Source of the DNA: an uncultured Clostridia bacterium
Lineage (GTDB): Bacteria > Bacillota > Clostridia > Oscillospirales > Oscillospiraceae
Assembly: GCA_945918315.1 (NCBI GenBank)
Contig: CAMEIK010000015.1
Coordinates: 1-12,613 of the forward strand
Direction: 5' to 3'
Length of the DNA stretch: 12,613 bases
Below, in pieces: positions 11-12,551 of this stretch. The notes beneath the pieces were generated by a model that saw only the letters and a program-made list of their open reading frames with translations, was not told the DNA's origin and ran no database searches. Position 1 is the first letter of the stretch, and the number at the start of each line of letters is the position of its first letter. The position numbers and the translations under genes were made by a program.

Positions 11-1048
11 TTACTTGTACATCTCGGGCTTTTCCATGGTCTCCACTTTCAGGAACTGAGAGGTACCACGGGAAGCGTTCAGGGCGTCACCGGCGACGCA
101 GGCCACATAGCCGTCCCAGGCGGAGGGGCCGGTGAGCTTGCCGGCGTGGACGCTCTCCACCCACTTGCACAGCTCAATGTCGTAGGCCTCGATGAAGCGC
201 TCCTTCCAGTCGGTCATGATGGGCATGCTCTCGGCGGGATTCAGGCTGTCCCAGCCGGCGGGACGGGAGCGGCGGACAACGGCATAGGGGTCGGGCAGCT
301 TCACGGTGCCGTTCTCGCAGACCACCTCGCACTGGATGTCGTAGCCGTAACCGTCGGCAACCTGGACCTCCACATCGATGAAGCAGCCCTTCTTGGTCCG
401 CATCAGCATGACCTGGGGGTTATCGTAGCCCTTGTTGGAGTTGGCGCTCTGACGGACCTTGACACACTGCACATCTTCATACTCGTCGCCCAGCAGCCAG
501 CGGCAGATGTCCAGCTCGTGGATGGCCACGTTGGTGACGCCGTTCTCGGTCTTGAAGCCGGGGCCCTGGCTCACGTTCCGGTGGCAGGCCTTGATGACCA
601 GAGGCGCGCCGATCTCGCCGGACTCAATGATCCGCTTCATTTCGGCATAGCCCCGGTCATAGCGGCGCATGAAGCCCACCTGCACCAGCCGGCGGCCGAT
701 CTCCAGCTCCCGGTTGATGATTTCCTCGCAGTCCTTGCCGTTCAGGCTCAGGGGCTTCTCGCAGAAGCACCACTTTTCCTCGGCCAGAGTCTTCATCACA
801 TAGTCGTGATGGGTGGGGTCGATGGAGGTGATGACCACGGCCTCCACCTCGGGGTCCTTGATCATACCGTCGCAGTCGTTGCCGAAGGAACGGATGCCGT
901 ACTTCTCGGCAACGGCATCGGCAGCAGCGGCCACATAGTCGGAAACCGCCACCACGGTAGCGCCGGGAACGGTGTCCATGATCCGGCGGCAGTGATCCTT
1001 ACCGATGGCACCGCAGCCGATAATACCGATTTTCAGAATCTTCTCCAT
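11..1048 (-). CDS. iolG: IolG-type inositol 2-dehydrogenase (Gfo/Idh/MocA family)
   Basis: The 345-residue product should oxidise myo-inositol (or an isomer) to scyllo-inosose with NAD+ in the cytoplasm, the first step of inositol breakdown. Seen: an N-terminal Rossmann glycine motif (GCGAIG, residues 11-16), the family's EKP motif (97-99, catalytic Lys98) and a central HELD motif with His177 and Asp180. Length is normal for IolG. The start has a GGGGGAG ribosome-binding site 9 nt upstream. It is the last gene visible in the operon, 18 bp after iolD, and stops 10 bp from the window edge, so more operon genes may follow. Four residues before His177 is Asn173; in Bacillus IolG, as I recall it, this position is an active-site Asp, so isomer preference (myo-, scyllo-, chiro-) is open. 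Family members are hard to separate by sequence alone; the iolEBD neighbours support the call. Confidence 0.85.
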   Translation of the reverse strand: MEKILKIGIIGCGAIGKDHCRRIMDTVPGATVVAVSDYVAAAADAVAEKYGIRSFGNDCDGMIKDPEVEAVVITSIDPTHHDYVMKTLAEEKWCFCEKPLSLNGKDCEEIINRELEIGRRLVQVGFMRRYDRGYAEMKRIIESGEIGAPLVIKACHRNVSQGPGFKTENGVTNVAIHELDICRWLLGDEYEDVQCVKVRQSANSNKGYDNPQVMLMRTKKGCFIDVEVQVADGYGYDIQCEVVCENGTVKLPDPYAVVRRSRPAGWDSLNPAESMPIMTDWKERFIEAYDIELCKWVESVHAGKLTGPSAWDGYVACVAGDALNASRGTSQFLKVETMEKPEMYK

Positions 1049-1066
1049 AGCGAATTACTCCCCCAA

Positions 1067-3001
1067 TTAATATTTTCTGGCATCCTTTTCATGGGCCAGA
1101 TGATTTTCGTATGCCTTCAGGTTCTCCGGATTCTCGGAAACCTCGGTATCGCCCACACGCCACCAGGCGCCATAGCCGTCGGTCATGGTCTTGGGCAGCA
1201 CCTTGATGTCAATGAGCACCGGGCAGTCCTTCACGGTCTTGGCATCCGCAACGGCGGCCTTCAGCTCGCCCATGGTCCGGACGGAGTAGGACTTGCAGCC
1301 GTAAGCCTCTGCCACCTTGGCGTAGTCAATGTCCAGGAACTTGCCGGAGAGGGCACCGTCGGTGCCCCGGGCCCGAAGCTCGGTGCACAGGGTAGCGTTG
1401 CCGTGGCCTACCTGCAGGTTGTTGATGCAGCCGAAGCTGGCATTGTCAAAGAGGCACACGATGATCTTCTTGTGCTCCTGGACGGCGGTAATCAGTTCGC
1501 CGTGGAGCATATTGAAGCTGCCGTCGCCGCAGAAGGAGTAGACCTCATGGTCATCGCCGATGGCCAGCTTGACGCCCAGGGCGCCGGCGATCTCGTAGCC
1601 CATGGTGGAGTAGCCGTACTCCATATTGTAGCTGTCAATGCCCGTGGGCCGGAACATCCGCTGCATGTCGCCGGGCAGACTGCCGGCAGCGCCGATGGCC
1701 ACATCACCCGGCTCCATCATGGCGTTGATGGCGCCCAGAGCGGTGGTCTGGCACAGCTCGGCGTTCAGGTCGTGGGCAAAGCGCCGGGCGGAGCCGTAGT
1801 TGGCGTCATTGATGATGGGCCGCCACTCGTCGGTATCTTCAAACTCCACGCCGTCCAGCCGCACCAGCTCCGCCGCCCACTTCTGGCGGGCAGCTTCAAT
1901 TTCGCCGTTATAGGCGGTCTTGTAGCCCTCCAGCAGCTTCAGCAGCCGGGGCAGAGCGTCCTTGGCGTCGGCCACCACGGGGATGGCATCCAACTTCAGG
2001 GCCTGGAACTCGGAAACATTGATGTTGACGAATTTGGCATCGTGCCGGAACAGCCACTTGGAAGCGGTGGTGAAGTCGGTGTAGCGGGTGCCGACACCGA
2101 TGATCAGATCCGCGTCCACGGCAATCTCATTGGCAGCGGAGCAGCCGGTGACACCCAGACCGCCCAGGTTCAGCCGGTGGGTCCACTCTATGGCGCTCTT
2201 GCCCGCCTGGGTCTCGCCGAAGGGGATGCCGGTCTTCTCGGCAAATTCCCGGAACTCGGCATGGGCCTCGGAGTAGCGCACGCCGCCGCCGCAGACCAGC
2301 ATGGGCTTTTTCGCGGCACGGATAGCGGCAGCCGCTTCCTCCAGGGCAGCCTGGGTAGCGGGACGGCGCTCCAGCCGCCACACCCGTTTTGCCAGGAAGG
2401 ACACGGGGTAGTCATAGGCCTCGCCTTCCACGTCCTGGGGCATTGCCAGACACACCGCGCCGGTGTTGGCGGGATCAGTAAGGGTGCGGAACGCATTAAT
2501 GCAGGCACTCATGAGCTGCTCGGGCCGGACGATCCGGTCCCAGTAGCGGCACACTGCCTTAAAAGCATCGTTGGTGGTGGTAGCCATGGAGTTCACATGC
2601 TCCACCTGCTGCAGCACCGGGTCGGGCTGGCGGCAGGCGTAGGTGTCGCCGGGCAGCACCAGCAGGGGGATGTTGTTGGAGGTGGCGGTGCCGCAGGCGG
2701 TGACCATATTGGCGGCGCCGGGGCCGATGGAGGATGTGGCGACGCAGATCTGCTTGCGCTTCATCTGCTTGGCAAAGGCAACGGCTGCCTGGGCCATGCC
2801 CTGCTCATTCTTGCCCTGATAGACCTCCAGCCGGTGGGCCTCCTGGATCAGAGCCTGTCCCAGGCCCACAACATTGCCGTGGCCGGGGATGATGAAAACG
2901 CCCCGGACGAAGGGGGTCTGGACCCCATCGACCTCAATGTACTGATTTTCCAGGAAACGCACCAGGGCCTGGGCCATGGTCAGGCGGACAGTCTCAATCA
3001 T
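1067..3001 (-). CDS. iolD: 3D-(3,5/4)-trihydroxycyclohexane-1,2-dione hydrolase IolD
   Basis: A thiamine-diphosphate enzyme of 644 residues that hydrolytically opens the ring of the diketo intermediate to give 5-deoxy-D-glucuronate, the third step of inositol catabolism. Seen: the three-domain layout of the acetolactate-synthase family, with the cofactor-activating glutamate at Glu66 in the KNEQGMA context, a central domain (about 210-360), and the C-terminal ThDP/Mg motif beginning GDGSF at 492-496 and reaching Asn520. Length matches IolD. The ATG at 3001 overlaps the iolB stop by 4 bp (ATGA), indicating translational coupling. It sits between iolB and iolG. A generic acetolactate synthase is unlikely given the length, the N-terminal extension and the iol neighbours. 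Confidence 0.95.
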   Translation of the reverse strand: MIETVRLTMAQALVRFLENQYIEVDGVQTPFVRGVFIIPGHGNVVGLGQALIQEAHRLEVYQGKNEQGMAQAAVAFAKQMKRKQICVATSSIGPGAANMVTACGTATSNNIPLLVLPGDTYACRQPDPVLQQVEHVNSMATTTNDAFKAVCRYWDRIVRPEQLMSACINAFRTLTDPANTGAVCLAMPQDVEGEAYDYPVSFLAKRVWRLERRPATQAALEEAAAAIRAAKKPMLVCGGGVRYSEAHAEFREFAEKTGIPFGETQAGKSAIEWTHRLNLGGLGVTGCSAANEIAVDADLIIGVGTRYTDFTTASKWLFRHDAKFVNINVSEFQALKLDAIPVVADAKDALPRLLKLLEGYKTAYNGEIEAARQKWAAELVRLDGVEFEDTDEWRPIINDANYGSARRFAHDLNAELCQTTALGAINAMMEPGDVAIGAAGSLPGDMQRMFRPTGIDSYNMEYGYSTMGYEIAGALGVKLAIGDDHEVYSFCGDGSFNMLHGELITAVQEHKKIIVCLFDNASFGCINNLQVGHGNATLCTELRARGTDGALSGKFLDIDYAKVAEAYGCKSYSVRTMGELKAAVADAKTVKDCPVLIDIKVLPKTMTDGYGAWWRVGDTEVSENPENLKAYENHLAHEKDARKY

Positions 3002-3816
3002 TTCGTTTCTTCCCCTTCCATTTTGAAAATATGCTCGTTGGCATCGGGCTTCCAGAGCCAGGCGTGCTCCTCGTCATCGATACGGGTCTTCTTCCAGGGG
3101 TCCCCCTCCAGATGCCGGATGCCCCAGGCGTAGCACATGGCATAGCCGGGAGCGGCGGTCTGGGAGTGGAAGCCGCTGGTGATCACCGAAAGACCGTTGT
3201 GCCCGGTCTTGTAGATCTCACCGTTGGCAAAGCCCGCGCCGAAGCCCTGGGGATGGTCAAAGCGGTAGAAGTAGACCTCCGGCTGGGGATGGTGATGGGG
3301 CGGGTAGGAGGACCACTTACCGGGGAAGTTCAGCACCTCGCCCAGCACCATATTGGAGTAGGGGGCGTTGTCGTAGTCGAAGAAGGTTTTGATCTCCCGG
3401 CGCATGCAGCCCATGAGCTCGCCGTTGGCACCGGCGTGCTGGGTCTGAACGGTCTCGGGGGTGTACAGCACCGGGGCGTAGTCCCGGTCATTGACCGTCT
3501 TCTGAATGTACAGCTCGCTGTGGCTGTGGGCTGTCAGGGTGATGGCCGTCTTTCTGGGCGCCAGCAGGCAGTAGGCTTCGTAGCGGAAGCAGTCCGGGCG
3601 GGCGCCGCGAACCGTCTGTCCGTTCCAGTCAAAGGTCACATCGCCGGCAAACAGCAGGACCGCGGTTTCCTTCTGCGTTTCTTCGATGTGATAGGTGTCT
3701 CCCGCTTCCATAACCAGCAGACCCACATCCATCAGGGTGCCCATATCGTCCTTGTCCGCGTCAATGTACGGATTGTAGCCCTGTACCAGGGAAGCGTTTC
3801 TGTCAAGATATGTCAC
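2998..3816 (-). CDS. iolB: 5-deoxy-glucuronate isomerase IolB
   Basis: A cupin-fold isomerase of 272 residues that converts 5-deoxy-D-glucuronate to 5-dehydro-2-deoxy-D-gluconate (DKG). Seen: the IolB metal-binding cluster PPHHHPQPE (172-180; His174-176 and Glu180), followed by the YFYRF strand, and His217 as a further likely ligand. Length is normal. The start is a GTG (complement of 3814-3816) with an AAGGGGGA ribosome-binding site just upstream; no ATG fits better. It begins 17 bp after iolE and overlaps iolD by 4 bp. Its product is the branch point here: the usual next enzyme, kinase IolC, is not in the window, and DKG may instead go to the transketolase encoded upstream. Confidence 0.95.
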   Translation of the reverse strand: MTYLDRNASLVQGYNPYIDADKDDMGTLMDVGLLVMEAGDTYHIEETQKETAVLLFAGDVTFDWNGQTVRGARPDCFRYEAYCLLAPRKTAITLTAHSHSELYIQKTVNDRDYAPVLYTPETVQTQHAGANGELMGCMRREIKTFFDYDNAPYSNMVLGEVLNFPGKWSSYPPHHHPQPEVYFYRFDHPQGFGAGFANGEIYKTGHNGLSVITSGFHSQTAAPGYAMCYAWGIRHLEGDPWKKTRIDDEEHAWLWKPDANEHIFKMEGEETK

Positions 3817-3833
3817 CGTGCGTCCCCCTTTTC

Positions 3834-4736
3834 TTACAGACCCGTATGGGCGCGGATGTAGGCCCGGGCCTTCTGGGCGTACTCCAGAGGATCGGCCTTG
3901 GCAGGATCCTGCTCGGCCTCCACCAGCAGCCAGCCCTCATAGCCGGCCTTGGAAAGGACCTCAAACACGGAGTCAAAATCCACGCCGCCGTCGCCGGGGA
4001 CGGTGAAGGCGCCGTTGCGGACAGACTGCAGGAAGCTCCAGTGATTCTTCCGGGCTTCCTCCACCACCGGCAGGCGCATATCCTTCAGGTGGACATGGCC
4101 GATCCGGTCGGTATACTTTTTCAGCATGGCAAGGGGATCCTCACCGGCAAAGGTGAAGTGGCCGGTGTCGTAGCACAGGAACACGTACCGGGGATCGGTG
4201 TTCGCCATCATCCGGTCGGTTTCTTCGGCTGTCTGCACCACGGTGCCCATATGATGGTGGAAGCAGAGCTTGAAGCCCCGGTCGGCGGCCACTTTGCCCA
4301 GCTTGTTCAGGCCCTCGCAGAAGATATCCCACTGCTCGTCATTCATCACGGGCTTGTGGTTTCCGGTAAGGATGGGAGTATCCACCTGGCCCTGGATGGA
4401 CCAGCTCTGCTCACTGACATTGATCCGGTCCGCGCCCACGGCAGCCAGGAAATCCAGGTTCGCGATAAAGTCGGCTTCCACTTCCTCATAGGGCTTCGTC
4501 AGCAGGAAGGAGGAGAACCAGCGGCTGGCAATCCGCATACCCCGCAGGTCCAGCTGATGCTTCAGTTCGGCAGGGTCCGTGGGGTACTTGTTGCCGATCT
4601 CGCAGCCGGTGAACCCTGCCAGGGCCATCTCACTGACGGTCTGGCGGAAGGTGTTTTCCGCGCCCAGCTCGGGCATATCATCGTTGCACCAGCCGATGGG
4701 GGCGATGCCAAGCTTTACCTTGTTGGCGTCAAACAT
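3834..4736 (-). CDS. iolE: myo-inosose-2 dehydratase IolE
   Basis: A xylose-isomerase-like TIM-barrel enzyme of 300 residues that dehydrates scyllo-inosose (2-keto-myo-inositol) to the 1,2-dione intermediate, using a divalent metal. Seen: the IolE N-terminal signature APIGWCNDD (12-20), HHHMGT at 160-165, YDTGH at 189-193, HVHLKD at 214-219 and VPGDG near 246-250. These supply the usual barrel metal and substrate ligands. The ATG has an AGGAGA ribosome-binding site 7 nt upstream. It starts 14 bp after the malic enzyme stop, so the malic enzyme is transcriptionally tied to the inositol genes. Family length and motifs leave little doubt. Confidence 0.94.
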   Translation of the reverse strand: MFDANKVKLGIAPIGWCNDDMPELGAENTFRQTVSEMALAGFTGCEIGNKYPTDPAELKHQLDLRGMRIASRWFSSFLLTKPYEEVEADFIANLDFLAAVGADRINVSEQSWSIQGQVDTPILTGNHKPVMNDEQWDIFCEGLNKLGKVAADRGFKLCFHHHMGTVVQTAEETDRMMANTDPRYVFLCYDTGHFTFAGEDPLAMLKKYTDRIGHVHLKDMRLPVVEEARKNHWSFLQSVRNGAFTVPGDGGVDFDSVFEVLSKAGYEGWLLVEAEQDPAKADPLEYAQKARAYIRAHTGL

Positions 4737-4750
4737 ACCATATTCTCCTT

Positions 4751-5923
4751 TCAGATCCGGGCAACACCGGTATCCCGGGCAGCCTGGGCAACCGCCTTGG
4801 CAACGGCAGGGCCCACACGCTTGTCAAATGCCTTGGGAATAATGTAATCGGCGGACAGCTCATCGTCGGAAATCAGGTCGGCCAGGGCCCTGGCGGCGGC
4901 CATCTTCATTTCCTCGTTGATGTCGGAGGCCCGCACATCGAAGGCGCCCCGGAAGATGCCGGGGAAGGCCAGCACGTTATTGATCTGGTTGGGGTAGTCG
5001 CTGCGGCCGGTGGAGACAACCGCCGCGCCGCCAGCCTTTGCGTCCTCGGGGAAGATCTCGGGGGTGGGGTTGGCACAGGCAAAGACGATGGCGTCCTTGT
5101 TCATGGTCTTCACCATCTCGGTGGTCAGGGTGCCGGGGGCAGAGACGCCGATGAACACATCCGCACCCTTGATGACGTCGGCCAGCTTGCCCTTTTCCAT
5201 ACCCCGGTTGGTGACCTGGGCCATTTCCTCCTTGATCCAGTTCAGGCCATCCCGGCCTTCATAGATGGCGCCCTTCCGGTCGGTCATGACAATATTCCGG
5301 AAACCGGCGGAGATCAGGAGCTTGGTAATGGAGATGGCAGCGGCGCCGGCGCCGGAGGTGACCACCTTCACATCCTCTTTCTTCTTTCCGACGACCTTCA
5401 AAGCGTTGGTCAGGCCCGCCAGGGTGATGACGGCGGTGCCGTGCTGGTCGTCGTGGAAGATAGGAATGTCGCACTTTTCCTTCAGCTTCCGCTCGATCTC
5501 AAAGCACCGGGGGGCGGAAATGTCCTCCAGGTTGATGCCGCCGAAGGAGCCGGAAATCAGGTAGACGGCGTTGACAAACTCGTCCACATCCTTGGTCTTG
5601 ACGCACAGAGGGAAGGCGTCCACATCGCCGAAGGACTTGAACAGCACGCACTTGCCCTCCATAACGGGCATACCGGCCTCGGGGCCAATGTCGCCCAGAC
5701 CCAGGACGGCGGTGCCGTCGGTAATGACGGCGCACAGGTTGTGGCGGCGGGTCAGCTCATAGGACTTGTTGATATCCTTCTGGATCTCCAGGCAGGGCTG
5801 GGCAACACCGGGGGTATAGGCCAGGGACAGGTCGTCCTTGGTGGCCACAGGCACGGTGGCCTTCACTTCAATTTTGCCCTTCCACTCGCCGTGGAGCCGC
5901 AGGGATTCCTTTGCGTAATCCAT
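4751..5923 (-). CDS. malic enzyme (oxaloacetate-decarboxylating malate dehydrogenase)
   Basis: A short bacterial-type malic enzyme of 390 residues, converting L-malate plus NAD(P)+ to pyruvate, CO2 and NAD(P)H. Seen: AYTPGVA with catalytic Tyr36, EGK with Lys91, the metal ligands in NLEDI (Glu132, Asp133) and HDDQHGTA (Asp158, Asp159), and the cofactor-binding GAGAAA at 191-196. I chose the ATG at 5923 because GGGAGGA lies 7 nt upstream and the family typically begins MDYAKESL; an upstream in-frame ATG at 5950 would add 9 residues and lacks a comparable site. NAD versus NADP preference cannot be read with confidence. Malic enzyme is not part of any inositol pathway I know. Its place between the larA-type gene and iolE suggests that malate is an intermediate here. 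Confidence 0.93.
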   Translation of the reverse strand: MDYAKESLRLHGEWKGKIEVKATVPVATKDDLSLAYTPGVAQPCLEIQKDINKSYELTRRHNLCAVITDGTAVLGLGDIGPEAGMPVMEGKCVLFKSFGDVDAFPLCVKTKDVDEFVNAVYLISGSFGGINLEDISAPRCFEIERKLKEKCDIPIFHDDQHGTAVITLAGLTNALKVVGKKKEDVKVVTSGAGAAAISITKLLISAGFRNIVMTDRKGAIYEGRDGLNWIKEEMAQVTNRGMEKGKLADVIKGADVFIGVSAPGTLTTEMVKTMNKDAIVFACANPTPEIFPEDAKAGGAAVVSTGRSDYPNQINNVLAFPGIFRGAFDVRASDINEEMKMAAARALADLISDDELSADYIIPKAFDKRVGPAVAKAVAQAARDTGVARI

Positions 5924-5930
5924 TGGTAAT

Positions 5931-5937
5931 TCCTCCC
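5931..5937 (-). promoter_or_regulatory. ribosome-binding site fixing the malic enzyme start
   Basis: The minus strand reads GGGAGGA here, 7 nt before the ATG at 5923-5921. Its strength and spacing decide in favour of this start over the in-frame ATG at 5950. Confidence 0.75.
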
Positions 5938-6006
5938 AATATGTATTCAATCAGGTTAACAATGCGAAAAATTGGAATTTGGCAGGGAACCCGGTGTCGG
6001 TCTACT

Positions 6007-6082
6007 TCGTAGGGGACGGGTTTCCCGTCCCCCGGAATTCGCAGACGCGTATGGGGTGGGACGGGAAACCCGTCCCCTACGA
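6007..6082. repeat. BIME/REP-like paired hairpin repeat in the operon's only large gap
   Basis: Two arms, 6007-6031 and 6058-6082, are perfect 25-bp reverse complements separated by 26 bp. Each arm is itself a hairpin: GGGACGGG, a 3-base loop (TTT or AAA), then CCCGTCCC. The element can therefore fold as two short hairpins or one long cruciform/stem-loop. There is no T-run after either stem, so it is not a standard intrinsic terminator. It looks like a dispersed REP/BIME-type repeat. In transcribed form it could slow 3' exonucleases and set different mRNA levels for the upstream genes (GAPDH to LarA) and the downstream ones (malic enzyme to IolG). The rest of the 219-bp gap (5924-6142) shows no gene and no convincing promoter. 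Confidence 0.85.
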
Positions 6083-6142
6083 TGCTGTTTTGGTTGGTGC
6101 GTCAAATTCCTGTTTTTCTGTTTGCTGTATCAAATCAATCGC

Positions 6143-7393
6143 TCAGCCCACAATCCGGGGCAGGGTGGAGCCGCCGTAGGGCATGGCAAGAACCGTGGCG
6201 TCGGGGCCCAGCTTTTGGAAGGCCGCGTCCAGGGCCGCCTGGGCGGAGGGCTGGGGGGTCAGGAAAATGGAACGGACAAAGTCCGGCTCCATGTCCGACA
6301 CCAGCCACACGTCTGCCTTTTGCAGCGTCATGGCAATGGCCGCCGCCTTGTGGCCGCCCAGCTGGAAGTCCCGGCCGATGCGCTCGATCATAGACGCGGG
6401 AGAGGGGGATTTTGTCATCCACTCCTCGAAGGTATGCTCACCCATGCCCTCCTTGCAGGAGCCGATCAGGATGATAATGCCGCCCTGATTCACCGCGTGG
6501 CGGGCATTGTCCAGAGCTTTCTGGGTCTGGTACAGGTTCAGATCCTTGGGAGCGCCGCCCTGGCTCACCAGCACGATGTCCGCCCCCTGGGGAAGCTTCT
6601 TTAAGTAGAGGGTATCGAGAAACGCGCAGCCTGCCCGGTGGGCTTTCACCGGGTCGCCGGCCACCGCCTTCAGAATTTCCTTGTGCTCGCTGAGGACCAC
6701 ATTGACAATGAAGTCGATGCCGCAGATGGCCCCCGCTTCCTCAATGTCCATCCGCAGGGGGTTCGTTTCCAGGGCGCCGGCACAGGCCTCGGGCCGCACC
6801 ATCATGGAGTGGTTGCTCTGGATTGCGTCCCGGGTGGACACGCCGGGCATAATGGCCTTGGCGCCGCCGGAGTACCCGGCAAAATAGTGGTACTCGATAT
6901 TGCCCAGGCAGATCCGCCGGTCCGCTTCCGCCACCACCCGGGTAATATCCACGGGCGTGCCTGCCTTGGTGACGCCCATATGGACGCAGTCCGCGGGTTC
7001 ACAGTCCACGCAGGCAATTTCGGAGAAGGCCCGCTCCCCTGCCAGGCGCCGCCGTTCCTCATCGGTATGATGGCGGTGACTGCCCAGAGCAAAGACCAGG
7101 GTGATGTCCTCCCGGCGCGCCCCCGCGGCGTACAGCTCGTCCAGCAGCGCGGGCATGACCTTGTAGGTGGGCATTGGCCGGGTGATGTCGCTGGTGACGA
7201 TGGCGATTTTTTCACCGGGCTTTACAATCTCCCCCAGCCGGGGGCTGCCGATGGGCTCGGCCAGAGCCCGGCGGACCTCCGCCTCTCCGGTCAGGCCCGT
7301 GGGAACCTCATTGGCGTGAAGCTCGCCCATTAAGTTTTTCTCAGGAACCTCCACCTCCTGGGTGGAGGTTCCGAAGCCGAAGCGCAATCGCAT
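6143..7393 (-). CDS. LarA-family nickel-dependent 2-hydroxyacid racemase, possible malate racemase
   Basis: A 416-residue LarA homologue. The family racemises or epimerises 2-hydroxyacids by hydride transfer through a nickel-pincer nucleotide; lactate is the founding substrate, and malate racemases are known within the superfamily. Seen: TSDITRP (Asp69, Arg72), GSHRHH (His106), EYHYFAGYSGGAKAIMPG with His169 and the cofactor-anchoring Lys179, the likely nickel ligand in SNH (His195), and GGAPKDLNLYQTQKAL (Lys283) lining the substrate site. The active site appears complete and length is normal. The cofactor makers LarB, LarC and LarE are not in the window and must be encoded elsewhere. It starts 3 bp after the transketolase C gene. 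Lactate racemase cannot be excluded by eye; malate is inferred from the neighbouring malic enzyme. Confidence 0.88.
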   Translation of the reverse strand: MRLRFGFGTSTQEVEVPEKNLMGELHANEVPTGLTGEAEVRRALAEPIGSPRLGEIVKPGEKIAIVTSDITRPMPTYKVMPALLDELYAAGARREDITLVFALGSHRHHTDEERRRLAGERAFSEIACVDCEPADCVHMGVTKAGTPVDITRVVAEADRRICLGNIEYHYFAGYSGGAKAIMPGVSTRDAIQSNHSMMVRPEACAGALETNPLRMDIEEAGAICGIDFIVNVVLSEHKEILKAVAGDPVKAHRAGCAFLDTLYLKKLPQGADIVLVSQGGAPKDLNLYQTQKALDNARHAVNQGGIIILIGSCKEGMGEHTFEEWMTKSPSPASMIERIGRDFQLGGHKAAAIAMTLQKADVWLVSDMEPDFVRSIFLTPQPSAQAALDAAFQKLGPDATVLAMPYGGSTLPRIVG

Positions 7394-7396
7394 GGC

Positions 7397-8359
7397 TCAG
7401 CCCTTTCTGGCAAGGACGGCCTTGACCTGGGCCACCACATGGTCGGCGGTCAGGCCGAAGCGCTCCTGCAGGTAGCCCTGGGGACCCACTTCGCCGAACT
7501 CATCCTCCACCGCCACACAGGCAGCGGGCACCGGGCACCGCTCACACAGCACCTGGGCAACGGAGGCGTACAGACCGCCGTGCCGGTTGTGGTTTTCCGC
7601 CACCACCACGGCGCCGGTCTTCCGGGCGTACTCCACCACCGCTTCTTCGTCCAGGGGCTTGACGCTGAACATATCCAGCACGGAAATCTGAGTGCCCTCG
7701 GCAGCCAGGGTTTCCGCGGCCTTCATGGCCTCGTGGACCAGGATGCCGGAGGCGAAGACCACCGCGTCGCCGCCCTCCCGGAGGACGGTGGCCTTGCCGA
7801 TGGGCACCTCGCTGCCCTCGGCGTAAACCTTGGCGTACTGCTTCCGGCCCACCCGGATATACTTGACGCCCTTGCGGTTCACGCACTGGCGGATGGCGCT
7901 CTCCAGCAGGGTGGGGTCGGTCACATCGATAATGGTCGCGCCGGGGATGGTGTTGTACAGAGCCATATCCTCAAAGGGCATATGGGTGCCGCCGTTCATG
8001 GCAGCCATGACACCGGGGTCAGTGCCGATGATGGTAATATCGTTCTTGGCGTAACCGGCGCTGAGGAACACCTGGTCAAAGCACCGGCGGGAAGCGAAGG
8101 GTCCGAAGGTATGGACAATGGGCTTGAAGCCGGCGGAAGCCAGACCGCAGGCCACGCCGATCATGTTGGCCTCGGCAATGCCGCAGTTGATGGCCCGGTC
8201 CGCCACGTCCCGGGTGCCCTTCAGGGTGCCGATGCAGCTCATGAGGTCCGCGTCCAGGTAGACGATCTCCGGATCCTCCTTCACCAGCTGGGGAATCACC
8301 CGGCCCAGCACCTCTTTGCAGGCCCGCTTATCCATTTCACCGTTGTAGACAATTTCCAT
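7397..8359 (-). CDS. transketolase, C-terminal subunit
   Basis: A 320-residue split transketolase subunit carrying the pyrimidine-binding and C-terminal (transketolase_C) domains. With the N subunit it should form a ThDP enzyme moving two-carbon ketol units between sugars. Seen: the cofactor-activating glutamate in CGIAEANM (Glu63); residues matching the usual substrate-phosphate contacts, namely Arg12, Ser41 in DADLMS, His126 in GGTH and Arg169 in IRVGR; and a C-terminal domain from about 190. The start has GGAGGG upstream. It lies 3 bp after the N subunit and 3 bp before the larA-type gene. A DXS-like role is less likely because DXS is a single longer chain. The anionic-group contacts are kept, which would suit either a phosphorylated donor or the carboxylated donor DKG. 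Confidence 0.9.
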   Translation of the reverse strand: MEIVYNGEMDKRACKEVLGRVIPQLVKEDPEIVYLDADLMSCIGTLKGTRDVADRAINCGIAEANMIGVACGLASAGFKPIVHTFGPFASRRCFDQVFLSAGYAKNDITIIGTDPGVMAAMNGGTHMPFEDMALYNTIPGATIIDVTDPTLLESAIRQCVNRKGVKYIRVGRKQYAKVYAEGSEVPIGKATVLREGGDAVVFASGILVHEAMKAAETLAAEGTQISVLDMFSVKPLDEEAVVEYARKTGAVVVAENHNRHGGLYASVAQVLCERCPVPAACVAVEDEFGEVGPQGYLQERFGLTADHVVAQVKAVLARKG

Positions 8360-8362
8360 AGC

Positions 8363-9205
8363 TCAGCCCTCCAGCGCGTCCAGCTCAGACTGCAGCTGAG
8401 CCATCCATCTTGTGTACTGCTCGTCGTTTACCGTCAGGGAGTGGTTCATCACGGTCTCGGCGACCTCCTTGATGCCCGCGCCCTTCACGGTGTCCATGAC
8501 GATGGCAAAGGGCTTGCCGTTACCCACACGGGTACGCTCCAGAGCGCCCTGCAGAGCCTCCACATCGTTGCCGTCCACCTTTACGGTGTCAAAGCCAAAG
8601 GCATTGAACTTCTCCACATAGTCGCCCATGGACAGAACATCCTCGGTCCAGCCGTCCAGCTGCCGCTTGTTCCAGTCCAGCAGCACCACAAGATTATCAA
8701 GCTTCTTGGCCGCGGCAAAGGAGAACGCCTCCCAGACCTGGCCCTCGTTGCTTTCGCCGTCGCCCACGATGAGGAACACACGGCTGTCACGGCCCCGGAG
8801 CTTTTCGCCCATGGCCATGCCGCAGGCCAGGGAGGTGCCCTGACCCAGGGAGCCGGTGGTCATATCCACACCGGGGGTCTTGTTCCGGTCGCAGTGGCTG
8901 GGAAGCCGGGTGCCGGGGCGGTTCAGGGTCTTCAGCTCCTCATAGGGGAAGAAGCCCTTGACGGCCAGGGTGCCGTAGACACCGGGGCCCGCGTGGCCCT
9001 TGGAGCACACCAGCTTGTCCCGCTCGGGCCACTGGGGATTTTGGGGATCCACCCGCATTTCGCCGCCGTAGAGCACCGCCAGCACATCACAGATGCTCAG
9101 GGCGCCGCCGATGTGGCCGGAGCCCAGGGAGTGAATGGCCTCCAGCGCCGCCATGCGGATACGGACAGCCAGGGCCTGCAGTTCCTTCTTCTTAGATACA
9201 TCCAT
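8363..9205 (-). CDS. transketolase, N-terminal subunit
   Basis: A 280-residue subunit holding the diphosphate-binding half of transketolase. Seen: GSGHIGG (28-34, His31), SKGHAG (His71), the ThDP motif starting GDGESNEGQVWEA at 148 and closing with DWNKRQLDG (Asn179), and a helical C-terminal tail. Length matches split N subunits of Clostridia and archaea. The ATG at 9205 has a GAGGTG site upstream. It begins 18 bp after the PGK gene and is followed after 3 bp by the C subunit, so the pair is surely co-expressed. Split transketolases are also used for the pentose phosphate pathway; placement inside an inositol operon suggests a dedicated paralogue, but this cannot be proved from one window. 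Confidence 0.92.
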   Translation of the reverse strand: MDVSKKKELQALAVRIRMAALEAIHSLGSGHIGGALSICDVLAVLYGGEMRVDPQNPQWPERDKLVCSKGHAGPGVYGTLAVKGFFPYEELKTLNRPGTRLPSHCDRNKTPGVDMTTGSLGQGTSLACGMAMGEKLRGRDSRVFLIVGDGESNEGQVWEAFSFAAAKKLDNLVVLLDWNKRQLDGWTEDVLSMGDYVEKFNAFGFDTVKVDGNDVEALQGALERTRVGNGKPFAIVMDTVKGAGIKEVAETVMNHSLTVNDEQYTRWMAQLQSELDALEG

Positions 9206-9223
9206 GGTCTTTCACCTCGTTTG

Positions 9224-10474
9224 TTATTTGCACAGTTCCGCCCCGTGGCGAAGGGCCTTCACAACAGGCAGCTCCTCGCCGGTAAGGAACCGGATCAACG
9301 CGCCGCCGCCGGTGCAGATATAGCCCATTTGGGAGGCCAGGCCGTACTTTTCCGTAGCGGTAATGCTGTCGCCGCCGCCCAGGACGGTAAAGCCCTCGGT
9401 GTCCGCCAGCGCCTGCCACACCGCCTTGGTGCCCAGCTCACTGGGAGCCTGCTCAAAGACGCCCATGGGGCCGTTGACGAAGACGGTCTTGGCGGAAAGA
9501 ATCTCCTGACGGTACATTTCCGCGGTCTTGCTGCCCACGTCCAGAGAGGTAATGTCCCCGGGGACCTGCCCCAGTGCGGCCTCCCGGCGCTGTCCTTCCT
9601 CAACCCAGGCCAGGTCCACCGGCAGGACGATCTTCTCGCCGTACTGGGCGTACAGTTCCTTCGCCTTTTCGATGTACTCGCCGTAGTTGGACTTGAGGAT
9701 AAAATTCACGCTGCCGCTGCCGATTTCCTTGCCCAGGGCCGTGAGGAAGATGTTGCCAACCAGACCGCCGGTGAGGATTTTGTCCGCCACGCCCCGGCTC
9801 AGGACGGTGTTCATCATCAGGAAAGCATCGGAGATCTTCGCGCCGCCCAGCACGAACACGCAGGGCCGCACCGGCGCCTCCATAACCTGGGACACGGTGC
9901 AGTATTCCTTTTCGAAAAGCCTTCCCATGTAGGACGGCAGCACCTGCTCAAAGCCGCAGAGGCTGGGCTGGTCCCGGTGGGCCGCCGCGAAGGCATCGCA
10001 GACATAGAGGTCCGCCAGAGGCGCCAGCTTCTCCACAAGCAGCGTCTTCGCCTGCTGCTCGTGGGTCAGGCACAGCTTCATTTCAAAGAGGGTCTGCTCC
10101 TCGGAAACGAAACGAACGTTGTCCAGAAGCAGGATTTCCCCGTCCTTCAGAGCACGGATGGCCTCCCGGGCGGCGGGTCCGCAGACGTCGTCGATCCACT
10201 TGACCTCCCGGCCCAGCAGCTGCTGCAGCACCGCGGCGTGGGGCTTGGTGGTGTAGAAATTCTTATACTCAATATCGCTGCCCTGGTGGGCCATCAGGAC
10301 CACCTTTGCCCCCCGGTCGCTGAGCTCCCGGACGGTGGGCACGCAGGCCTGGATGCGGTTGATGCTCTTGAGGGTTCCCTTTGCCCGGTCCACCGGCTGG
10401 TTGATGTCCACCCGGCACAGGACGGTTTTGCCCCTGACCTCCGCCTCATCCAGGGTTTTGATTCCGAATCGCAT
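9224..10474 (-). CDS. archaeal-type phosphoglycerate kinase paralogue
   Basis: A 416-residue PGK-family kinase that should transfer phosphate from an acyl phosphate to ADP. It resembles archaeal PGKs more than the usual bacterial form: RVDINQP (21-27), MAHQGS (61-66), LLDNVRF (116-122), CDAFAAAHRDQPSL (159-172), VLGGAK (208-213) and VLGGGDS (364-370). Of the basic residues that hold the 3-phosphoglycerate phosphate in the family, Arg21, Arg40, His63, Arg121 and Arg167 are present. The position of yeast-type Arg65, normally Arg or Lys, is Ser66. This weakened anionic pocket could mean a substrate with a carboxylate in place of a phosphate, such as malyl phosphate. AAGGAG precedes the start, 12 bp after the GAPDH stop. 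It is probably not the housekeeping PGK, though the window cannot show this. Confidence 0.88.
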   Translation of the reverse strand: MRFGIKTLDEAEVRGKTVLCRVDINQPVDRAKGTLKSINRIQACVPTVRELSDRGAKVVLMAHQGSDIEYKNFYTTKPHAAVLQQLLGREVKWIDDVCGPAAREAIRALKDGEILLLDNVRFVSEEQTLFEMKLCLTHEQQAKTLLVEKLAPLADLYVCDAFAAAHRDQPSLCGFEQVLPSYMGRLFEKEYCTVSQVMEAPVRPCVFVLGGAKISDAFLMMNTVLSRGVADKILTGGLVGNIFLTALGKEIGSGSVNFILKSNYGEYIEKAKELYAQYGEKIVLPVDLAWVEEGQRREAALGQVPGDITSLDVGSKTAEMYRQEILSAKTVFVNGPMGVFEQAPSELGTKAVWQALADTEGFTVLGGGDSITATEKYGLASQMGYICTGGGALIRFLTGEELPVVKALRHGAELCK

Positions 10475-10486
10475 GCAGCTCTCTCC

Positions 10487-11539
10487 TTACTTGAAGCGGC
10501 CGATTTTCAGATACTTGTTGGTAGCGGCAGTGCCCTCTTCCCGGGTCAGCTGCATCTTCATAGCGGCGCGGATAGCGTCCATGGTCTCGGGGATGGTGAC
10601 GCTCTCCTGGGGGATGTGGATGGCGTACATAATGTCGTTGCCGCTCTCCACCACGGAGTCCTCCCACAGGCCGATTTCATAAATGTCGCCCCGGCGGTTG
10701 CCCAGGTCACGGCCATACTTGAAGAAGGAAGCGTTGCCCATGAAGCCCTCGTCGATGGTGACGGTGCGGATACGGGGATGGGCGCGGAAGGCGGCCAGGG
10801 CCTCGTCCCGGGTGATCTTCCGGCCGTCCTTGCCGGAGGCCAGCACGGTGATGATGTGGCCGTGGGTCACGGGAGTATGTACCAGAATGCCGGTAGCCTG
10901 GACATGGGGCATGATGGTCATGAGGTCAACGGCCTGATGGGAAGGAGCCTTGTCGATCTGCAGGGCGTTGGTCAGTCCGCGATGGTAGTCACCGGGGTCG
11001 GCCACACGGCGGATGATGGTGATGGCAACCTTGTCCACGCCGTAGGCACGGTCCAGGCAGTCCACGGTACGAATGAGGCCCGTGGTGTTGCAGGAGGTGA
11101 GCTTCAGATAGTTCTGGCCCAGGCCCTTTTCATAGTTGGCATAGCCATGGAAGAACACATCGGCAACGCTGTTCTTCTCACCGCCCTGGAAAATGGCCTT
11201 CACGCCCATCTTCTCATAGATGACCTTGTTCTTCGCGCCCACGCCGCCGGGAGCGGAGTCCAGCATGATGTCAACCTTGCTGCACAGCTCCTCAAAGGTA
11301 CCGGCCACAGGGATGTCCTTGGCATCGAAGGCGGCACGGTCCGCGCCGTTTACCAGATAGAGGTTATACTTGACGCCGTTGGCGCCGATCATGTCGTTCT
11401 CCCGCAGAGCCCGGATCGCCAGAGTGGGAGCCAGATCAGCAATGCCGACAAGCTCCATATCCTCCTGCATGGCAACGCCGTCCGCCAGACGCTGACCGAT
11501 GGTGCCGTAACCCGCGACGCCTACTCTTACTTTAGCCAT
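10487..11539 (-). CDS. type II (archaeal-type) glyceraldehyde-3-phosphate dehydrogenase paralogue
   Basis: A 350-residue phosphorylating aldehyde dehydrogenase of the archaeal type II GAPDH family, which makes an acyl phosphate from an aldehyde, phosphate and NAD(P)+. Seen: GYGTIG Rossmann motif (10-15), IFQGGEK (116-122), catalytic Cys150 in TSCNTTGL, RRVADP (177-182), and a candidate catalytic His in HTPVTHGH (221-228). Archaeal enzymes as I remember them read RRGADP and SHHGPD where this one reads RRVADP and SHQAVD (200-205). These changes are near the substrate and may reflect a different aldehyde. It is the first gene of the operon, with AGGAGG 10 nt before the ATG and a strong promoter about 70 bp upstream. 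Type II GAPDH is uncommon in bacteria, and pairing with an archaeal-type PGK suggests joint acquisition. Confidence 0.9.
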   Translation of the reverse strand: MAKVRVGVAGYGTIGQRLADGVAMQEDMELVGIADLAPTLAIRALRENDMIGANGVKYNLYLVNGADRAAFDAKDIPVAGTFEELCSKVDIMLDSAPGGVGAKNKVIYEKMGVKAIFQGGEKNSVADVFFHGYANYEKGLGQNYLKLTSCNTTGLIRTVDCLDRAYGVDKVAITIIRRVADPGDYHRGLTNALQIDKAPSHQAVDLMTIMPHVQATGILVHTPVTHGHIITVLASGKDGRKITRDEALAAFRAHPRIRTVTIDEGFMGNASFFKYGRDLGNRRGDIYEIGLWEDSVVESGNDIMYAIHIPQESVTIPETMDAIRAAMKMQLTREEGTAATNKYLKIGRFK

Positions 11540-11592: not shown

Positions 11593-11611
11593 ACAATTTC
11601 ATCTGAATTGT
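11593..11611. promoter_or_regulatory. candidate operator overlapping the operon's -10 box
   Basis: ACAATT and AATTGT form an inverted repeat with a 7-base spacer covering the -10 box (11607-11612) and the predicted start of the minus-strand transcript. A repressor bound here would block initiation. The divergent DeoR-type regulator is the natural candidate. The binding is inferred; only the repeat and its position are seen. Confidence 0.4.
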
Positions 11612-11635
11612 AACACACCATCCCCAAACTGTCAA
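11607..11635 (-). promoter_or_regulatory. sigma-A type promoter of the ten-gene operon
   Basis: On the minus strand TTGACA (11635-11630) is followed, after exactly 17 bp, by TACAAT (11612-11607). This is a consensus -35 and a five-of-six -10. Transcription would start near 11600, giving a leader of about 60 nt before the GAPDH ATG at 11539. Confidence 0.8.
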
Positions 11636-11733: not shown

Positions 11734-11772
11734 AGTTGCAGATTGTTCCAACGCGTTCACACCGTGCCCTGA

Positions 11773-11778
11773 AAGGAG
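11773..11778 (+). promoter_or_regulatory. ribosome-binding site of the deoR-type gene
   Basis: AAGGAG lies 11 nt before the ATG at 11790, a slightly long spacing. It supports this ATG over an in-frame TTG at 11736, which falls at or before the predicted transcription start. Confidence 0.65.
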
Positions 11779-11789
11779 TGTTTCCCTCC

Positions 11790-12551
11790 ATGAAAGAAGT
11801 CAGACAGAAGCAGATGCTTTCCCTCATTGCCCAGCGGGGCAGTATCACCATGGAGGAGCTGCAGCGTGTCTTCGGAACCTCCATGAATACCGTCCGCTCC
11901 GATGTCGCCAAGCTGGTCTCCTCCGGGGCAGTGGAGAAGATTTACGGCGGCGTGCGTATCCTCAGCACCCAGGAGGTCCCCCTCTTTACCCACCGGTCGG
12001 ACCTCCACGCCGACGGCAAGCGGCGCATTGCCCAGTACGCCCAGGACCTGATTCAGGACAATGATACCTTATATATTGATCCCGGTACCACCACCATGCA
12101 CCTGATGGACTTCCTCTCCCCCGCCAAGCATGTGACCATTATCACGGGAAACCTGTCTATTCTTGCCCGGGCCTCCGCCTTCCCCAATGTGGAGCTCATT
12201 GTCCTGCCGGGGCTTCTCAATCGCAGGACCAATTCCGTCGCCGATGTGAGCACCCTGGAATTCCTGGGCCGCTACCGCTGCGCCAAGGCCTTCCTGGGCG
12301 CCTCGGGGGTTTCTCCCAACGGGAAGCTGAATGTGTCCACCTACATTGAATATGAACTCAAGAAGCTTGCCATCCAGCAGAGCCTGCACACCTTCCTGCT
12401 GGCCGACGGCAGCAAATTCGGCAAGGAAAGCCTGATGGCCTACGGTACCATCGCCGATCTGGAGGAAATCATCACGGATACCAGTTGTCCGGCCTTTGCC
12501 AGAGAGCTTTGTGCCAAAGAGGGCATCCGTCTCACCGTGGTGGATGAATAA
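11790..12551 (+). CDS. DeoR-family transcriptional regulator (IolR-like)
   Basis: A 253-residue DeoR-type regulator, probably a repressor of the divergent operon. Seen: an N-terminal winged helix-turn-helix (about 5-58, including RQKQML, SITMEELQRVFGTSMNTVRSD and IYGGVRI), then a DeoR C-terminal sugar-phosphate-sensor-like domain with DPGTTTMHL (98-106), VTIITGN (115-121), LPGLLN (139-144) and LADGSKFG (204-211). Length is typical. The start is set by AAGGAG and by the promoter position. Bacillus IolR is from the same family and answers to phosphorylated DKG; no kinase for that compound is seen here, so this protein's ligand may differ. It is the only plus-strand gene. I leave the symbol blank because orthology to IolR is not established. 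Confidence 0.9.
   Translation: MKEVRQKQMLSLIAQRGSITMEELQRVFGTSMNTVRSDVAKLVSSGAVEKIYGGVRILSTQEVPLFTHRSDLHADGKRRIAQYAQDLIQDNDTLYIDPGTTTMHLMDFLSPAKHVTIITGNLSILARASAFPNVELIVLPGLLNRRTNSVADVSTLEFLGRYRCAKAFLGASGVSPNGKLNVSTYIEYELKKLAIQQSLHTFLLADGSKFGKESLMAYGTIADLEEIITDTSCPAFARELCAKEGIRLTVVDE

Follow-up and report, generated by a model that had tools for sequence, protein, structure and literature searches.

Phytate supplies the gut with inositol, a common nutrient there. In its classical degradation pathway (IolG-E-D-B-C-J-A), 2-deoxy-5-keto-D-gluconate (DKG) is formed, phosphorylated and cut to malonate semialdehyde. Here we describe an operon of an uncultured Clostridia bacterium of the Oscillospiraceae (assembly GCA_945918315.1) in which genes for the formation of DKG stand together with genes for a split transketolase, relatives of GAPDH and PGK, a LarA-type racemase and a malic enzyme, and we propose that these enzymes would degrade inositol by way of a transketolase cut of unphosphorylated DKG. 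The stretch of DNA analysed, hereafter the window, comprises contig C15 (CAMEIK010000015.1; 12,613 bases) in full and belongs to a genome, G000, that is 64% complete and lies in 264 contigs.

Parts of such a route have described counterparts. In sulfoquinovose breakdown, according to the available text of PMC11659671, the split transketolase sulfo-TK (SqwGH) acts on a ketose that bears an acid group and no phosphate, transferring two carbons to glyceraldehyde 3-phosphate, and the remaining aldehyde is isomerised for a second cut. A mutant transketolase of E. coli (TktA) converts 5-ketogluconate to tartaric semialdehyde in an engineered strain, as reported in the accessible part of PMC12016104. 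For the racemase Mar2/LarAH6, a malic enzyme in the gene context was taken as a hint to malate as substrate and the in vivo role was left open in the portions available of PMC7583248, whose main text contains no occurrence of either inositol or transketolase.

Structure of the operon and proposed route

The ten genes form one operon on the minus strand that runs from position 11539 to position 11 in the order GAPDH-II, PGK, TktN, TktC, LarA, malic enzyme, iolE, iolB, iolD and iolG. Intergenic spacing is 3-18 bases, iolB shares 4 bases with iolD, and the sole wide gap, of 192 bases, separates LarA from the malic enzyme gene. The gene content listed by the original prediction, which was made from the letters of the window (iolG, iolE, iolD, iolB, transketolase, GAPDH, PGK, LarA and malic enzyme), was confirmed in full within this single operon.

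The products of iolG (11..1048, inositol dehydrogenase family; NF052679 367 bits, below the cut-off of 540), iolE (3834..4736, 2-keto-myo-inositol dehydratase; TIGR04379 407 bits, cut-off 290), iolD (1067..3001, acylhydrolase; TIGR04377 873 bits, cut-off 715) and the iolB-type gene (2998..3816, divergent 5-deoxyglucuronate isomerase; PF04962 161 bits, TIGR04378 93 bits, below the cut-off of 205) would make DKG, IolB being its predicted producer. Since IolB and IolG fall below their NCBIfam cut-offs, they are, judged by these scores, divergent family members. The IolB model also gives 83 bits for the same-genus genome G031 and 343 bits at locus L151, which points to divergent IolB clades.

The split transketolase consists of TktN (8363..9205), the N-terminal, thiamine pyrophosphate-binding subunit (PF00456, 162 bits), and TktC (7397..8359), the C-terminal subunit (PF02779, PF02780), so that all three transketolase domains are present. 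It would cut DKG between C4 and C5, without prior phosphorylation, leaving malate semialdehyde (COO-CH2-CHOH-CHO) and passing the two-carbon unit to glyceraldehyde 3-phosphate or ribose 5-phosphate to give xylulose or sedoheptulose phosphate. Worked out by hand on the basis of DKG's known configuration, the carbons at the cut would be D-threo (seen from C6) as in fructose and xylulose, and the product would therefore be (R)-malate semialdehyde, and then D-malate. GAPDH-II (10487..11539), a type II (archaeal-type) GAPDH paralogue (NF003251 386 bits, cut-off 185; TIGR01546 291 bits, cut-off 233) and the predicted phosphorylating malate-semialdehyde dehydrogenase, would oxidise and phosphorylate this aldehyde to D-malyl phosphate, from which the PGK paralogue (9224..10474; PF00162 392 bits) is predicted to transfer the phosphate to ADP, giving D-malate and ATP. 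The recruitment of GAPDH and PGK relatives would be explained because malate semialdehyde is isosteric with glyceraldehyde 3-phosphate, CH2-COO- standing in place of CH2-O-PO3. LarA (6143..7393), a homologue of the LarAH6-type nickel-dependent malate racemases (NF052593 566 bits, cut-off 500), would racemise D-malate, a step that would account for its place in the operon because the D-malate formed has to pass through a racemase before malic enzyme can use it, and the malic enzyme (4751..5950; PF00390 111 bits, PF03949 92 bits; likely start at the ATG at 5923, preceded by GGGAGGAA) would decarboxylate the product to pyruvate. By this balance one ATP would not be spent on IolC and one would be gained at PGK.

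We infer every reaction of the scheme and regard the whole of it, from inositol via DKG, the transketolase cut, malyl phosphate and malate to pyruvate, as very probable. The same transketolase-malate scheme had been put forward in the original prediction, and those of its predictions that comparison could address held for the most part; its support is comparative throughout: the exclusion of IolC, the malate model passed by LarA, the changed residues of three enzymes and the dehydrogenase of locus L077.

Conservation of the gene cluster

A genome scan with the GAPDH of the window, from which the best 80 of 417 relatives were kept (80-100% identity), led to loci whose titles point to Clostridia and Spirochaetales genomes. 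PGK adjoins GAPDH-II in 68 of the 72 loci with more than 1 kb to the right of GAPDH-II. Among the 51 loci with enough flank, PGK is found in 49, LarA in 46, TktC in 35 and malic enzyme in 22, while at least one of iolE, iolB and iolD is present in 40 and all three in 35; the counts over both 72 and 51 loci include near-duplicates. The number for TktC leaves out a 29% match at L039 (36 less L039), which adjoins pyruvate dehydrogenase E2 and E3 genes and was taken as an E1 subunit, and the tally of iolG among the 51 loci was not used, as it takes in distant oxidoreductases (24-31%).

A second sample, 391 genomes drawn evenly from the Clostridia, contained 16 carriers of GAPDH-II. The 17 loci around the 15 carriers besides the own genome (GAPDH-II 62-81% identity) hold PGK in 16 cases, LarA in 12, transketolase in 10 and malic enzyme in 6, and an iolD, iolE or iolB gene in eight that are spread over seven families. 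GAPDH-II co-occurs with iolD in 12 of the 16 carriers (p 2e-12), G393, G484, G496 and G605 being carriers without iolD over the cut-off. Oscillibacter valericigenes An411 has the GAPDH-PGK pair, with no iol genes in the locus analysed. The grouping of these genes, a conserved cluster of gut bacteria, is not due to chance.

Four loci titled Spirochaetes or Spirochaetales (L023, L047, L062 and L064) contain GAPDH-II, PGK, iolE, iolB and iolD. In L023, L047 and L062, iolD is followed by a LarA of only 33-36% identity (363 of 500 bits with the malate racemase model for L023), and the racemase may have been swapped there.

Mutual exclusion of IolC and the GAPDH-II module

No IolC over the cut-off was found in 44 GAPDH-II genomes (best 199 bits of 300), which include two duplicate pairs and are at most 42 distinct genomes; in G002, G006 and G097, which are 94-98% complete, the matches reached 186-199 of 300 bits. 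A hidden IolC in the carriers was set aside on the same search. The original prediction had expected the cluster in genomes lacking the later classical enzymes, and for IolC this was borne out, the cluster being conserved in genomes with no IolC over the cut-off.

The class draw gave the same picture. IolC is matched in 14 of the 391 Clostridia, 13 of them at 358-421 bits and one, G290, with a partial match (283 of 300 bits), and in none of the 16 GAPDH-II carriers; G342 and G471 have IolC and no iolD. Among the 28 genomes with iolD over the cut-off, IolC occurs in 0 of the 12 with GAPDH-II versus 12 of the 16 without it (11 over the cut-off plus G290). Fisher's test gives p 6.6e-5, or about 2.5e-4 by hand when G290 is left out, in both cases uncorrected for relatedness. 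The same-genus genome G031 (87% complete) has iolD, no GAPDH-II and no LarA, and carries an operon iolA-iolC-iolD-iolE-iolG-iolB with IolA at 575 of 448 bits (TIGR01722) and IolC at 393 of 300. IolC and the GAPDH-II module exclude each other.

Changed residues in TktC, PGK and GAPDH-II

Residues were counted over aligned rows from which L001, the window itself, was dropped for PGK, GAPDH and TktC, as were the other, partial PGK of its own genome (L002), L039 for TktC, taken for an E1 subunit, and the short rows L017, L051 and L056 for PGK and L013, L055 and L078 for LarA. The same locus stands in both the near and the distant set (as L082 and L141), and the PGK of L019 and L022 are alike.

The nearest solved structure to TktC is 6yaj. 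Asp114 of TktC occupies the site of the canonical His of 6yaj, of transketolases that we take to be human, and of other transketolases of G031 and G006 (L166, L167). Asp is found at this site in all 60 operon-type TktC (near 47/47, distant 10/10, third group 3/3), and the canonical His in none. The sulfofructose transketolase shows the same swap from His to Asp (RSFHR to RAFDR) according to the available text of PMC11659671, where the residues are called phosphate-orienting.

The motif HQGKP, HLGRP or HLGKV of five solved PGKs is replaced by HQGSD, HQGDT or HQGGD in all 85 rows, 83 of which are distinct. In the window these places are held by Ser66-Asp67, the first of which is Lys or Arg in the five solved enzymes; it is Ser (HQGSD) in 69/69 near rows and Asp in 13, Ser in 2 and Gly in 1 of 16 distant rows. 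This Lys or Arg is presumably a ligand of the phosphate of 3-phosphoglycerate. GAPDH-II keeps Cys150 of the catalytic motif, and the PSHH of four solved enzymes has become HQ in 98/98 rows, as their GP(I/V)N segment has become GLTN in 81/81 near and 16/17 distant rows. The nearest solved structures to PGK and GAPDH-II are 2cun and 2czc, both of which we take to be from Pyrococcus horikoshii.

As read from the alignments, the residues facing the substrate phosphate are lost in TktC and PGK, and conserved segments are altered in GAPDH-II. Such changes are expected if a carboxylate takes the place of the phosphate.

LarA and the predicted product of the module

The model passed by LarA bears the NCBIfam name 'nickel-dependent malate racemase, LarAH6', and the nearest solved structure is Mar2 (6d6z). 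The claim of the original prediction that the LarA-type racemase acts on malate is favoured by both matches. Lys349, in the GHK motif, is Lys in 69/69 rows with letters at this position, two rows having none; its counterpart in Mar2, K351, binds the second carboxylate according to the sections available of PMC7583248.

At L077 (12415-13479), a tartrate/D-malate-type dehydrogenase gene (TIGR02089, 504 of 470 bits) directly follows GAPDH-II and PGK, and LarA, malic enzyme and iol genes are all missing from the 21 kb of this locus. The TIGR02089 (tartrate dehydrogenase) family presumably includes D-malate dehydrogenases, and the gene, by its model match, fits D-malate as the product of the module. 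L077 is the only locus with such a dehydrogenase after GAPDH-PGK among the loci tested. A gene after PGK in L054, considered as a D-malate dehydrogenase by its length, was rejected: it contains PF04198, a regulator domain that binds sugars, and scores highest, though below the cut-off, with a DeoR model.

Possible other ways of cutting DKG and possible re-use of the module

Four iolD genomes with neither IolC nor GAPDH-II (G270, G298 and G325, of one genus, and G315) have an iol operon that includes a transaldolase-family gene. Such genes (L158:6910-7986, L159:6574-7650, L160:9425-10501, L161:7362-8441 and L165:7494-8570) lie between iolE and iolB or iolD. Those of L158 (G270) and L161 match PF00923 with 153 bits, the other two of the four are alike in NCBIfam, and all stay below the NCBIfam cut-offs. 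IolA is kept in G270, G298 and G325 (L158-L160), with a model scan for that of G270 only. From their gene context, the transaldolase-family genes of iol operons without IolC likely serve a transaldolase cut of DKG, which would give malonate semialdehyde and fructose 6-phosphate. Every one of the 28 iolD genomes carries at least one of IolC, GAPDH-II and such an iol-operon transaldolase; G408 combines the last two, the IolC genomes having been partly checked for transaldolase. Three iolD genomes of the same order (G154, G172 and G187), with no IolC over the cut-off and no GAPDH-II, have an Asp-type transketolase gene a few kilobases from iolB-iolD. A match to GAPDH-II of 25% identity in G164 was left out of the count.

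In L072 (205-15603), GAPDH-II, PGK and transketolase stand amid genes for an IolM-like dehydrogenase (187 of 450 bits) and an IolO-like epimerase (273 of 300 bits), together with those for a creatininase-family protein and the tagaturonate epimerase UxaE. This gene set resembles what we take to be the Thermotoga-type inositol route, and it looks, from the genes present, as if that route fed the same module towards tartrate.

It seems on balance probable that anaerobes cut DKG in three ways (by kinase and aldolase, by transketolase or by transaldolase), that reshaped GAPDH and PGK form D-malyl phosphate and draw ATP from it, which would be a new metabolite and a new substrate-level phosphorylation, and that the module is re-used with a Thermotoga-type route for tartrate.

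Alternative explanations

The GAPDH-II, PGK and transketolase of the operon could be ordinary central enzymes that handle triose phosphate beside the iol genes, DKG being cut classically elsewhere. In G000 (64% complete), G104 (85%) and G002 (98%) no transketolase other than that of the operon was found, and this enzyme therefore may not be dedicated but may double as a housekeeping enzyme or serve the pentose phosphate pool; in G097 the other transketolase match sits at the cut-off. GAPDH-I was not found in the window's own genome or in G005, G032, G089 and G104, all less than 90% complete. However, canonical GAPDH-I is present in 14 of 20 genomes and in 10/10 of those at least 90% complete, where GAPDH-II is therefore an extra enzyme; a housekeeping role for GAPDH-II was set aside on this ground. 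The own genome also holds a second, partial PGK, the carriers have no IolC over the cut-off, TktC and PGK are without the phosphate-facing residues, and LarA and malic enzyme would be left unexplained, all of which makes this explanation highly improbable.

The same machinery might instead act on another acid, a related 5-keto-hexonate or fructuronate being cut, with GAPDH-PGK making tartrate and LarA epimerising it. L072 links GAPDH, PGK and transketolase with UxaE and an IolO-like epimerase, and the model that matches the L077 dehydrogenase bears the name of tartrate dehydrogenase. Malate racemases of the superfamily show a side activity on tartrate, but LarAH62 is far weaker on tartrate than on malate, as far as the accessible part of PMC11770544 reports. 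In the window, malic enzyme follows LarA, and the product expected from IolE, IolD and IolB is DKG, a compound with no 2-hydroxyl; we consider such a substrate very unlikely there. That a transaldolase or aldolase cuts DKG to malonate semialdehyde here too, with the module acting downstream, appears extremely unlikely. The iol operons of other Clostridia with a transaldolase-family gene speak for it, as do G408, which combines such a gene with GAPDH-II, and the GAPDH-II locus L058, which carries IolA (550 of 448 bits). Yet BLAST of the GAPDH-II loci gave only a 33% transaldolase match, at L039, with a low score against the transaldolase model (74 of 367 bits), and transaldolase cleavage in the relatives of the window was rejected. 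In BLAST, IolA had matches only in L058 (57%) and L070 (25%) of the loci L003-L082 and none in L141-L157, a search confined to the fetched loci, with no genome-wide search for IolA or IolJ.

Besides the sole transketolases, the missing GAPDH-I, G408 and L058, several further points weigh against the transketolase-malate route. TktC is absent from 16 and malic enzyme from 29 of the 51 flanked loci, L011 is without PGK, LarA and transketolase, and 11 of the 51 have none of iolE, iolB and iolD, a contig end explaining at least two of these (L003, L007). A further transketolase of G006 (L172, 29% identity to that of the window) carries Asn rather than His at the position of Asp114, and the residue argument rests on alignments rather than structures. 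The L077 dehydrogenase also passes the 3-isopropylmalate dehydrogenase model (413 of 393 bits). LarC is needed for the nickel-pincer cofactor of LarA; it was found in 11 of 20 GAPDH-II genomes, including the own genome, and at three loci (L024, L039, L081) LarA is present although the genome yielded no LarC.

Other features of the window

Divergent from the operon lies an open reading frame for a DeoR/GlpR-family regulator (11736..12551, plus strand; DeoR/GlpR-type NCBIfam models all below cut-off, best 120 of 300), and similar genes recur next to GAPDH-II in some relatives. A promoter-like site, TTGACA-17-TACAAT, stands upstream of GAPDH-II on the minus strand (11607..11635); it is a consensus match only, with 11/12 positions agreeing and TG before the second hexamer. 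The 192-base gap between LarA and malic enzyme contains a 36-base inverted repeat (6007..6082) with arms 86% complementary and a 4-base loop. The corresponding gap measures only 14 bases in L015, and the repeat is perhaps an inserted palindromic element.

Comparison with known systems

Searches of the open-licence literature listed no description of a transketolase inositol route, and none of a transaldolase DKG route among the matches listed, this second idea having been only lightly probed. The route seems undescribed, with two enzyme steps that appear new and a chemistry that has close precedents in sulfo-TK (PMC11659671) and in the reaction of the mutant TktA (PMC12016104). The two reactions added, if the route is true, are a phosphorylating malate-semialdehyde dehydrogenase and a malate kinase working in the ATP direction.

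The window shares with the classical inositol pathway IolG, IolE, IolD and IolB, which lead to DKG. The classical pathway then phosphorylates DKG and cuts it to malonate semialdehyde, whereas the proposed route has no IolC, would cut the unphosphorylated compound between C4 and C5 and would end at malate and pyruvate. An ATP-spending step would be replaced by an ATP-making one, and genomes without IolC would be counted as non-users of inositol.

The mutant TktA acts on the corresponding bond of 5-ketogluconate, which is DKG with a 2-hydroxyl, but it is a mutant enzyme in an engineered strain with no GAPDH-PGK step, by the portion available of PMC12016104. The LarA of the window passes the LarAH6 model, and the route, if true, would give LarAH6 malate racemases the in vivo role that the accessible text of PMC7583248 leaves open.

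Sulfo-TK is likewise a split transketolase that takes its two-carbon unit from an unphosphorylated, acid-bearing ketose and shows the same change from His to Asp. Its substrate is a sulfonate, whereas that of the window would be a carboxylate, with a single two-carbon transfer; model scans of the operon genes gave no match to sulfoquinovose or sulfoerythrose isomerases among the ten. Where the sulfo-TK pathway, in the part of PMC11659671 at hand, isomerises the aldehyde for a second cut, the enzymes of the window (GAPDH-II and PGK) would oxidise it with substrate-level phosphorylation. If this is true, the transketolase/transaldolase split of sulfoquinovose breakdown would be a general answer to unphosphorylated, acid-bearing ketoses.

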